The position numbers and the translations under genes were made by a program. Positions 6,201 through 42,887 of a stretch of 42,887 nt of DNA are shown in pieces. This DNA is from an uncultured Eubacteriales bacterium (GTDB lineage Bacteria; Bacillota; Clostridia; Oscillospirales; Oscillospiraceae): contig ONPN01000028.1 of NCBI GenBank assembly GCA_900319695.1, forward strand, positions 1 through 42,887. Reading direction: 5' to 3'. Under the pieces are notes generated by a model that worked only from the letters and a program-made list of their open reading frames with translations, had not been told where the DNA came from and ran no database searches. Position 1 is the first letter of the stretch. Each line of letters starts with the position of its first letter.

Positions 6201-6524
6201 GGCAACACCGCACAATGCGGCAAGAGCAGATTCAGAGAAAACCTGATACTGTTTTTCGTTAAAACGGTTCGTTTTAACGAAAAGGCATCGCGCAAAGCGC
6301 GCTGCCAGTTTTGTGCCCTTGGGCACAAAACATGTCTCATAGGTCTCCGACGCGCCTTTGGCGCTATCGCTATAAAACGGCTTTAAGCCGTTTTATGGGA
6401 GACCAGTATGAGTTCTGATGATGGCACTTTTTCGCAGATGTACTTTGTGTACCTCAAAAAAAAGTGGCGAGATCAGGGCACAAGTTTTCCGGAAGATGCC
6501 GCAGGCGTATTGCGCGGTATTGCC
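6201..6524. repeat. 324-bp inverted-repeat element, full copy (GGCAACACCG family)
   Basis: The element starts GGCAACACCGCACAATGCGG and ends in GCGCGGTATTGCC, so the outermost ~15 bases are imperfect inverted repeats. Flanks are TTAT and TTAA, compatible with a decayed 4-bp target duplication. Bases 6411-6524, inverted, match 19903-20015 almost base for base and 13311-13425 more distantly. The middle holds consecutive perfect stems: TTTTCGTTAAAACG (6253-6283), GTTTTGTGCCC (6308-6331), GCGCC (6352-6364), ATAAAACGGCTT (6372-6396) and an outer GGTCTCC/GGAGACC clamp (6342-6404). No transposase is encoded, and the 81-codon open frame at 6408-6653 only reads through the element end. It is best described as a non-autonomous, MITE-like element. 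Confidence 0.85.
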
Positions 6525-35840: not shown

Positions 35841-37268
35841 ATGGAAACAGAAAAACAAAACACGGCGTCCTCACCGATGAAGCGCGCATATGCGGCGTTC
35901 GCGGAAAAGTATGAGCAGGGGGTATGGTATCTGCTTTTGCTGTGGTGCCTTCTGCCGATCATCATGTGCGCAAACTTTGTCGTCTCTGCGGCGACTGGCC
36001 GCTTCCCCACGGTGGAGGAGCTTGCGGAGGAGGGCTTCACGCTCGGCAGTGTCAATTACGATGAGGCGCTTGCGTCCTACCAGATGCTGTTTTTCGTCCT
36101 CGGCGGGATCACGGTGTGCGTGGCCCTGACCCTCCTGATCCTCGCCCGGCGCAGGGTCTTCAGTCTGAAAGCCCTCCGGGCCCAGCCGTGGTTTTACCTG
36201 TTCGGTCTGTTCCTTCTCTGGGCCTGCGTATGCACGGCAAAATCCGATTACAAATATTTCTCCCTGGTTGGCGGCAGCTATATGCGCGACGGATTGCTGA
36301 GCTATTTTATCTACGGCGCCGTCTTCCTCTGCGCGTCCGCCCTGCGGCGGGAGGACTACCGCCGGAAGCTCATGCTGTGCTTTACCGGCGTGATCGCGTT
36401 TATCGCGCTCATCATGCTGGTGCAGGAAAAAGCAGACATCTACTTCCTTGATTACTGCTTTTCGTCCGAAAGGGCGGTCGTGTTCAACCAGTTCAACCAC
36501 CTCGGCTACATGCTGTGCATGAGCTCCATCGCCTGCTTCGGCTTCTTCCTGTATGAGAGCGGGGACAAGCGCCTCAAGCTCCTGTACCTCGCGGGCTTCT
36601 GCTTCCTGGTGTACGCGCTTGTCGTCAACGACACCTTCGGCTCCCTGCTGGCCGTGATCGCGGCGATCCCGGCGGCGCTGCTCTTCTGCTGGCGCTCCGG
36701 CAGAAAACTGAACTGGCGCGCACTGGGCCTGGCGGTGCTGATCGTGGTGGCCGCGCTGCTGATCGTCTTCGCCGTCACCGGAAGGAACGGCCCGCTCGGC
36801 AACTTCATTCAGCTCAAAAATGACCTTGTCAAAATCCTCACCGGCGCCGAGGACGCCGACAGTGCGGGCACCGAGCGCTTCAAGCTCTGGAAGGAGACCG
36901 TGGATTGGATACGCTGGCGTCCGATCTTCGGCTTTGGCCCCGAGGGGCTGGTCCGTCGGCACGCCCTGTCCGGAAACCGTCTGCCGCACAATACCTACCT
37001 GCAGGTCACCGCGTTTACCGGCTTTCCCGGCCTGTTCTTCTATCTCTCCGCGCTCATTACCCTCGCCGTGCACCACTGGAGGAAGATCAAAGCGCTCGAC
37101 ACCATGGTGCTGATCGCGTCCGGGACCGCGTTTGCCTACCTGGTGTCCCAGACCTTCGGCGCCCCGATCTACAATGTTGAGCCGTATTTCTGGCTCTTCC
37201 TCGGCCTTGTGACGCTGATGAATGAGCAGGAAAAACCGCTGCTTTATCTGGAAACGCCCGAGGCATAA
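35841..37268 (+). CDS. O-antigen ligase/polymerase-like membrane protein
   Basis: A 475-residue protein with about eleven to twelve hydrophobic helices, of the WaaL/Wzy superfamily that polymerises or ligates lipid-linked glycans on the outer face of the membrane. The family-typical large extracytoplasmic loop near the C-terminal third contains FKLWKETVDWIRWRPIFGFG and then RLPHNTYLQVTAFTGFPGLFFYL, where H-N-T-Y-L is the usual conserved block. AGGAGAAAC precedes the ATG, 30 bases after the sugar transferase stop. With that gene it makes a two-gene initiation/polymerisation module; other assembly genes would have to be elsewhere, possibly those at 13620-19748. Confidence 0.83.
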   Translation: METEKQNTASSPMKRAYAAFAEKYEQGVWYLLLLWCLLPIIMCANFVVSAATGRFPTVEELAEEGFTLGSVNYDEALASYQMLFFVLGGITVCVALTLLILARRRVFSLKALRAQPWFYLFGLFLLWACVCTAKSDYKYFSLVGGSYMRDGLLSYFIYGAVFLCASALRREDYRRKLMLCFTGVIAFIALIMLVQEKADIYFLDYCFSSERAVVFNQFNHLGYMLCMSSIACFGFFLYESGDKRLKLLYLAGFCFLVYALVVNDTFGSLLAVIAAIPAALLFCWRSGRKLNWRALGLAVLIVVAALLIVFAVTGRNGPLGNFIQLKNDLVKILTGAEDADSAGTERFKLWKETVDWIRWRPIFGFGPEGLVRRHALSGNRLPHNTYLQVTAFTGFPGLFFYLSALITLAVHHWRKIKALDTMVLIASGTAFAYLVSQTFGAPIYNVEPYFWLFLGLVTLMNEQEKPLLYLETPEA

Positions 37269-40872: not shown

Positions 40873-41487
40873 TTAGTCCTCATATTCAAATGCGGCGCGG
40901 ACCCGTTCCAGAGCCTCGCGTATCTCCTCGCCCGAGAAGCCGCGGCGGTAGAGACTCGCGCTGAGCTTTCGCACTGCGTCGCGGTCGTCGGGGTCTCTGA
41001 GCTTCGCGGCGATCAGGCGGTCGAGCCTGTCATGGCTCTCCGGCATGGACGCCAGTGCCTCGTCCGAAAGCTCCCGCGGGATACCCCGGCGCATCAGCTC
41101 CTGACGCACGCGCCCAGCGCCGCAGCCCTTGGCGGCGTAGTGCCGCACGATGGCGGCGGCGTAGCGCTCCTCGTCGATGAGGCCGCGCTCCGTGATCCAG
41201 TCGGCGCAGTAGTTTGCCGTCTCCTCGTCGAAGCCCTTGTCCTTGAGCTTCTGCAAAAGCTCCTTTATCGACATCAGCCGCTGGGACACGAGCTCAAGCG
41301 CCTTTTCCCGTCCGAGGGAGCGGGATGATTCGCGCCGCAGCTCGTCGAGGGCCGTGTCGTCCAGCTCCCGGCCGGTATACAGGCGCAGCTCCGTCACCGC
41401 GGCGAGGGTGGATCTGATCTCCGTCCCGTCGTCCAGGCAGACGGTGACGCGCTCGGGGGAGCTCTGTTTCAGAGAGACAACGCGCAT
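40873..41487 (-). CDS. recX: Regulatory protein RecX
   Basis: RecX binds RecA filaments and limits their activity. The 204-residue protein is made of the three tandem three-helix units of the family: SLGREKALELVSQRLMSIKELLQKLKDKGF, YCADWITERGLIDEERYAAAIVRHYAAKGCGAGRVRQELMRRGI, and KLSASLYRRGFSGEEIREALERV. The ATG at 41487 is ten bases past the recA stop, with GAGGACTGAG upstream; a TTG at 41511 would start inside recA. Co-transcription with recA is the usual arrangement. Confidence 0.9.
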   Translation of the reverse strand: MRVVSLKQSSPERVTVCLDDGTEIRSTLAAVTELRLYTGRELDDTALDELRRESSRSLGREKALELVSQRLMSIKELLQKLKDKGFDEETANYCADWITERGLIDEERYAAAIVRHYAAKGCGAGRVRQELMRRGIPRELSDEALASMPESHDRLDRLIAAKLRDPDDRDAVRKLSASLYRRGFSGEEIREALERVRAAFEYED

Positions 41488-41497
41488 AGACGAACAC

Positions 41498-42563
41498 TCA
41501 GTCCTCGTCAAAGTCCGCGGCGCTCACGTCCACAGCCGGGGCGACAGTCGCGCGGCCCGCGGCCTGGGCGGCCTTCATGGCCTGGGGGCTCATCAGCTTG
41601 TGGGCGTTGTCGCGGATCTCCTGCTCGATCTTATTGCAGACCTCGGGGTTCTCCGCCAGATAGGTCTTCACGCCGTCGCGGCCCTGGATGCGCTGGCCGT
41701 CCACGGTGAACCACGCGCCCGCCTTGTCGATGATCTCCAGCTTGACGCCGAGGTCCACGATCTCGCCGATCTTGGAGATGCCCTCGCCGTACATGATGTC
41801 AAACTCCGCCTCGCGGAAGGGGGGCGCGACCTTGTTCTTGACGACCTTGGCGCGGGTGCGGTTGCCCACCATCTCGCCGTTGACCTTGAGGGTCTCGATG
41901 CGGCGCACGTCGATGCGGACGGAGGCGTAATACTTGAGGGCCAGGCCGCCGGGCGTGGTCTCGGGGTTGCCGTACATGACGCCGATCTTCTGTCTGAGCT
42001 GGTTGATGAAGATGACGGTGCAGTTATTCTTGGAGATGGCGCCGGCGAGACGGCGCATAGCCTGGCTCATCAGTCTGGCGAGGGCGCCGACCACGGTGTC
42101 GCCGACCTCGCCCTCAAGCTCAACCCTGGGGATAAGGGCGGCCACAGAGTCGATGACCACCACGTCGATCGCGCCGGAGCGGACCAGGGACTCGGCAATG
42201 TCCAGGGCCTGTTCGCCGGTGTCCGGCTGGGAGATGAGCAGGCTGTCGATGTCCACGCCGAGGGCGCGGGCGTAGGCGGGCTCCAGGGCATGCTCGACGT
42301 CGATGTAGGCGGCGTCGCCCCCGGCCTTCTGGGCGGAGGCCACCGCGTGCAGGGCGAGGGTGGTCTTGCCGCTTGCCTCGGGGCCGTAAATCTCAATGAT
42401 GCGGCCCTTGGGGATGCCGCCGATGCCGAGGGCGAGGTCCAGGGACAGCGAGCCCGTGGAGAGGGCCTCGACGTTCACGGAGATGTCGTCGCCCAGGCGC
42501 ATGATGGTGCCCTTGCCGTAGTCCTTTTCGATTTTCGGCGGGAATCTTTTTCTTTTCAGCCAT
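41498..42563 (-). pseudogene. recA: recA with N-terminal deletion and frameshift
   Basis: RecA is the recombinase and SOS co-protease. The normal start is the ATG at 42563 (GGAGAGAG upstream), reading [11 protein letters not shown]. Here the frame is lost: the next family-like sequence, [16 protein letters not shown], lies one frame over, and about eleven residues expected between (the KxKALxxALxQ helix) are absent. So roughly 30-35 bases are missing. From M at 42502 the frame is intact to 41498 (334 residues), with Walker [52 protein letters not shown] and an acidic end. AAGGG seven bases before that ATG could allow internal initiation, but the product would lack the N-terminal helix used for filament packing. 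Confidence 0.85.
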
Positions 42564-42579
42564 GTTCTCTCTCCGATCT

Positions 42580-42602
42580 GCCATAATATGGCGAATTATT
42601 CG
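42580..42602 (-). promoter_or_regulatory. Two short palindromes in the recA promoter region
   Basis: GCCATAATATGGC (42580-42592) and CGAATTATTCG (42592-42602) are adjacent perfect palindromes just upstream of the recA ribosome binding site. The first contains TATTAT on the minus strand, usable as a -10 box. Neither matches the Gram-positive LexA box (CGAAC-x-GTTCG pattern), although the second has the CGAA/TTCG ends. Confidence 0.35.
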
Positions 42603-42607
42603 ATACC

Positions 42608-42706
42608 CGGCTCCCCTGAAAGGGGAGCTGTCGCCGCCGCTTGCGGCGGTGACTGAGGGGTTTGACCCTTCCGCCCTTCGGGCACCTCCCCTTTCAGGGG
42701 AGGCAA
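42608..42706. repeat. Third copy of the CTTGGCTCCCC palindromic repeat
   Basis: It starts CGGCTCCCCTGAAAGGGGAG and ends CCCCTTTCAGGGGAGGCAAG, with inner GCCGCCGC/GCGGCGG and CCGCCC/GGGC stems and the GACTGAGGGG block. It is directly upstream of the recA promoter region. Confidence 0.85.
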
Positions 42707-42713
42707 GAGCGGC

Positions 42714-42739
42714 GGGCGACCGCAAGGGTCGCCCCTACA
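42714..42739. repeat. Right-half remnant of the CGTAGGGGC repeat
   Basis: GGGCGACCGCAAGGGTCGCC followed by CCTACA matches the right arm type of the copies at 27881 and 33579, ending in the CCCCTAC block. It directly follows the prmC stop on the minus strand. Confidence 0.6.
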
Positions 42740-42887
42740 TTACATTCTCCCGACGACGGCGCGGTCCACGCCGCGCGCGTCCTGGTGAATGCTGGTGGAG
42801 GCAAAGCCGCCCGCGAGCAGCATGTCGGCGACATCCTGGGCCTGCCCCTCGCCGACCTCAAAGATCAGCAGACCGTCGGGCCGCAGC
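42740..42887 (-). CDS. prmC: Release factor glutamine methyltransferase PrmC, C-terminal part
   Basis: The last 48 codons of a gene that continues beyond the right edge. The frame reads LRPDGLLIFEVGEGQAQDVA, then ADMLLAGGF and ARGVDRAVVGRM before a TAA at 42742-42740. G-G/D-L-L-x-F-E-V/I-G-x-x-Q followed by GF and D-x-x-G-x-x-R-x-V-x-G is the characteristic end of PrmC/HemK, which methylates the GGQ glutamine of release factors. Only the C terminus is visible, so catalytic NPPY cannot be checked. Confidence 0.75.
   Translation of the reverse strand, partial: LRPDGLLIFEVGEGQAQDVADMLLAGGFASTSIHQDARGVDRAVVGRM

Follow-up and report, generated by a model that had tools for sequence, protein, structure and literature searches.

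The stretch of DNA analysed here (the window) is the whole of contig C80, 42,887 bases long, one of the 96 contigs of a metagenome bin that is 79.3% complete. Near its right-hand end, all on the minus strand, lie the 3' end of prmC (42740–42887, recognised by contig overlap and a profile match), the gene recA and, directly downstream of it, recX (40873–41511, profile match). Most of recA is intact: the 334 codons from the ATG at 42502 (41498–42502) carry the RecA core, matching Pfam RecA PF00154 with an E-value of 2.4e-126 over profile positions 20–262 of 262, and the RecA_C domain is matched as well. Compared with an ordinary bacterial RecA, the window encodes the same ATPase core, the same C-terminal domain and the same protein from MRLG onward, with the end of prmC before the gene and recX after it. 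What differs is that the window's assembly is without 53 bp of the N-terminal coding part, which interrupts the frame after the start codon and ahead of the core.

The family start codon, ATG 42563, is in place, with a ribosome-binding-like GGAGAG ahead of it (42569–42574, minus strand). Its frame (42393–42563, minus strand) encodes [11 protein letters not shown] before departing from that of RecA and ending at a stop after 56 codons; the rest of RecA, from [14 protein letters not shown] through the stop at 41498, is read in the frame of ATG 42502. Alignment with relatives places the junction at 42535|42536 (minus strand). Against G068, the nearest relative found (RecA 99.4% identical over the shared part), the gap is exactly 53 bp, with 0 bases in the window standing against 53 in G068, and the flanks match for 28 bases on the left and 32 on the right. 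There is no microhomology at the junction, which rules out a repeat collapse. The two ATGs of the gene lie 61 bases apart in the window and 114 apart in G068. The earlier note had described a frameshifting deletion of the N-terminal helix region, with an offset of 61 bases between ATG 42563 and the frame of 42502; both statements hold, the missing length being no multiple of three, while the expected size of about 30–35 bases was wrong and is corrected by G068 to 53 bp.

As assembled, the gene has no start codon in frame with both an N-terminal helix and the polymerisation motif. The motif reads TIMRLG at the cut, and from ATG 42502 onward only MRLG is left of it. Between the upstream stop at 42598 and ATG 42502 the intact frame offers CTG 42559 and ATC or ATA codons only, leaving ATG 42502 as its sole usual start. 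The AAGGG that had been pointed out upstream of this ATG is present at 42514–42510 (42510–42514, minus strand), 7 bases ahead of it, and belongs to codons found in most of the intact relatives shown in the alignment.

Aligning the gene with the recA of relatives, which had been suggested as a check, gave a uniform answer. A RecA match was found in 100 of the 101 genus genomes searched, the window's own included; G044 gave none, and in G028 only a C-terminal fragment was found. Matches that begin at the first residues of the protein define 105 recA 5' ends in 98 other genus genomes, and in every one of them an in-frame ATG lies 36–47 residues ahead of MRLG, with the helix segment between. (The automatic helix pattern overlooked four of the 105, which by eye read RKQALETVLKK or RKQALDTVLKK.) Close relatives with an intact gene, as expected for a pseudogene made by assembly, are at hand. 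The 26-mer that spans the junction, searched with up to 2 mismatches, occurs in one of 102 genomes, the window's own. In a genome collection from which the window's own record and very close ones may be absent, the best named match was to a goat caecum bin of the Oscillospiraceae, at 89%, and a search of IMG/VR returned only distant RecA proteins, the best at 76%. Within the bin we found a single RecA match and no second recA, and the stretch missing from the gene turned up elsewhere in it only as pieces of up to about 31 bases (40 of 42 candidates scored). Among the other genomes, the recA of G030 (L203, G030:C9:19900-21400) has its frame broken by another gap, about 32 bp long, in the middle of the gene and of its contig, and two recA matches with intact 5' ends, which may reflect contamination or a true second recA, occur in each of G034, G041, G050, G053, G083, G087 and G097.

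The part of recA that remains bears no sign of decay. Its 334 codons differ from those of G068 by 26 synonymous and 2 amino-acid changes. With G100 as outgroup, 16 synonymous and 0 amino-acid changes fall on the window's own branch and 5 synonymous and 1 amino-acid changes on that of G068, while 6 could not be assigned. This shows strong purifying selection on the window's branch and rules out an old pseudogene: recA was under selection until very recently, so that the lesion must be very new, absent from the cell, or harmless. Upstream of the gene, the region between prmC and recA (42609–42705 and 42710–42738) is made up mostly of short repeats that recur many times in the bin; in G068 it has another and longer filling.

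The junction lies 352 bp from the end of the contig. The last 99 bases of the window (42789–42887, within prmC) recur without a difference at the end of C26, another contig of the bin and the one with the remainder of prmC. Among the 17 contig ends of the window's bin that were compared, this was the one overlap of 99; another, of 74, lies in a repeat. In G068, two pairs of contig ends likewise overlap by exactly 99 (55 ends compared). These exact overlaps suggest that both bins are de Bruijn assemblies with a k near 99.

The window's bin was compared with G068 for other gaps of this form. About 455 kb of its 2.82 Mb entered the comparison: twenty 20-kb stretches, the window, contig C26 and a 4-kb piece of C58, the window and the C58 piece being non-random picks. 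About 164 kb of this aligned with G068 in long pieces. A gap counted as clean when 20 bp or more were absent from one genome and next to nothing from the other; aligned pieces below 85% identity or 30 bp, events below 20 bp, overlaps beyond -15 and places where both genomes had a gap of more than 10 bp were dropped. Gaps of 1–18 bp, of which there are many on both sides, fall outside this classification. In the aligned sequence, 8 clean gaps were on the side of the window's bin and 23 on that of G068. A looser filter on less sequence gave 26 events. One of these, at L227:10389, is a loss of 24 bp from an open frame in the window's bin, with an overlap of 24 bp, and is excluded by the stricter filter.

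Four of the gaps in the window's bin are in single-copy sequence, and three of these are no further than 410 bp from where a contig ends: the one in recA, one in rplA (C65:408) and a noncoding one (C78:148). Only 1,987 of 166,579 aligned bases lie that close to a contig end. The binomial P for the clustering is about 7e-6; leaving out the recA event, which prompted the analysis, raises it to 4e-4. The 410-bp limit was chosen post hoc, and 5 of the 17 contig ends of the bin aligned well enough to be judged. Three single-copy gaps of the bin are in open frames of at least 100 codons, and two of them shift the frame, numbers too small to tell whether gaps in this bin ignore it. The third, away from contig ends, is 75 bp long and in frame.

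The gap in rplA (ribosomal protein L1; L226:222-852, contig C65) is of the same kind as that in recA: a clean loss of 59 bp that shifts the frame, 408 bp from the start of its contig. The gene is thereby split into two frames, covering residues 1–63 and 81–230. In 15 other genomes, rplA was found in a full single frame in 9 and as fragments in 5, with no match in the remaining one. The same assembly thus holds a second such lesion in a gene that is rarely lost. Laboratory E. coli is able to lose rplA, so that a broken copy is not impossible.

Single-copy gaps in open frames are more numerous in G068, where we counted 18, with sizes from 26 to 158 bp. Eleven of them shift the frame, against 12 expected without selection on frame, and the G068 gaps thus seem to ignore the frame, although the direction of change is clear for three of them. 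In those three, G068 is the odd one out. Where G068 lacks 86 bp in a glycosyltransferase gene, 12 of 14 other genomes have the gene at nearly full length in one frame; where it lacks 77 bp in an E1-E2 ATPase-like gene, 13 of 14 have the gene whole; and for a gap of 67 bp at the end of a gene, 11 of 14 end like the window's genome, near residue 372. For a 63-bp gap the other genomes gave no direction. A Wzy_C gene (35841–37268 in the window), taken as a control, is present in too few relatives to be informative. Apparent gene losses in G068 should be treated with care.

Comparison at the level of whole open reading frames found 4 of 88 G068 ORFs split into two frames in the window's genome and 6 of 89 in the reverse direction, some of these on the non-coding strand. 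Split ORFs are thus about equally common in the two bins, a less one-sided picture than that of the gaps; recA escaped this comparison because the lost part is short. Against G100, with 16–17 shared ORFs per direction, too few to be very informative, there was no frameshift in the window's genome. One G100 ORF has 2 internal stops there, and in G100 an internal stop interrupts two ORFs of the window's genome, of which one is antisense to recA. At L218:14049-16788, on contig C44 of the window's bin, an ORF that runs for 905 codons in G068 is disrupted by a 29-bp difference, a 1-bp gap and a TGA. At the 29-bp difference (L218:14180) it is the frame of G068 that is open; close relatives for comparison are lacking there, and the difference could be an error of either bin.

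Taken together, the 53-bp gap in recA is probably an artefact of assembly, and the sampled cell most likely carries a full-length gene. Four observations make this reading the more likely one: the position of the gap near a contig end, the companion gap in rplA, the gaps of the same form in G068 and the purifying selection on the rest of recA. Mechanistically, a short-read metagenome assembly of the de Bruijn type would have produced the contig, and short single-copy stretches would have been dropped cleanly, in this bin close to some of the contig ends and in G068 at internal positions, apparently regardless of reading frame. Reads from the sample would then be predicted to span an intact recA. 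As to the software step we can offer only a guess, either a local extension of contig ends or a scaffold gap closed to zero length, which would fit the sizes. A de Bruijn contig in principle holds only k-mers that are present in the reads. Since the junction lacks the microhomology that a repeat collapse would need, an artefact has to be assumed to come from a chimeric or wrong join. Two further observations count against an artefact: by the gap filter the window's bin looks cleaner than G068, and an intact copy of the missing stretch is absent from the bin.

That assembly gives rise to false pseudogenes has been documented (PMC11017572). The case of recA resembles those described there in its frame-breaking lesion, in the conserved gene, in the draft genome and in the intact close relatives; it differs in coming from a metagenome bin and in the form of the lesions, which are clean gaps (53, 59 and 182 bp) no more than 410 bp away from contig ends. 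Metagenome-assembled genomes lie outside the assessment of that paper by its authors' own words. Our literature search on contig-end deletions in local metagenome assembly of the MEGAHIT type found no paper.

The main competing explanation is a real and very recent deletion in the strain, with recombination and SOS crippled; we regard this as unlikely, while giving it some weight. The gap is, after all, present in the sequence and seen nowhere else in the genus, the bin has a single RecA match and no intact copy of the stretch, and the only usual start in the intact frame after the stop at 42598 is ATG 42502. At best such a strain would make a shortened RecA from that ATG, or weakly one from CTG 42559, and filaments would form poorly. 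Yet the remaining gene is without decay, with only synonymous changes on its own branch, rplA has a companion gap, and the lesion sits beside a contig end; that one genome should truly lose both recA and rplA by clean gaps in such positions is not expected. A variant of this explanation, which would account for the purifying selection, has internal initiation yield a functional protein of 334 residues. It can appeal to the AAGGG 7 bases ahead of ATG 42502 and to a truncated frame that is fully open and conserved, but the N-terminal segment is kept at every one of the 105 recA 5' ends read in relatives, and the AAGGG is made of codons that most of the intact relatives shown share, so that it gives no sign of an adapted internal initiation. 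The lost segment, moreover, is one that contacts the adjoining subunit (PMC4957752). We therefore hold a working short RecA to be highly improbable. That a free-living gut Oscillospiraceae strain lives with a helix-less RecA, translated from the methionine of the polymerisation motif, seems to us very unlikely.

Least probable of all is a mixed population, in which the assembler preferred a minor real variant or a PCR chimera over an intact majority. The contig does stop 352 bp away from the lesion, at the 99-bp overlap of C26 and C80, which suggests a branch in the assembly graph; at such a k, a real variant should have broken the contig at the deletion itself and not some 350 bp from it. The assembly artefact remains the reading that we prefer. 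Of the account in the earlier note, the absence of the helix region from the sequence stands, while an assembly error is a likelier reading than crippled recombination or internal initiation at 42502; the observation is confirmed at its corrected size, and the underlying biology is most likely ordinary.

Were the deletion real, a strain in nature would be living without proper RecA filaments, a surprise in a free-living gut bacterium. Translation from ATG 42502 would then give a protein of 334 residues with no helix and with the polymerisation motif cut at the methionine, and a crippled RecA would be expected. In practice, the locus indicates that gene-loss calls from draft metagenome bins can mislead even for highly conserved genes: in one bin both recA and rplA look broken, and in each the break is at most about 410 bp from the end of a contig.

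Apart from these genes, no Rfam family was found in the window at gathering scores. The opposite end of the contig (window 1–97) lies in a repeat about 97 bp long, of which the bin contains 39 or more further copies, whole or partial, that are 91–100% identical (40 of 101 candidates scored). This repeat has an internal inverted match around positions 60–90, and a further copy lies within the window at 6243–6342.
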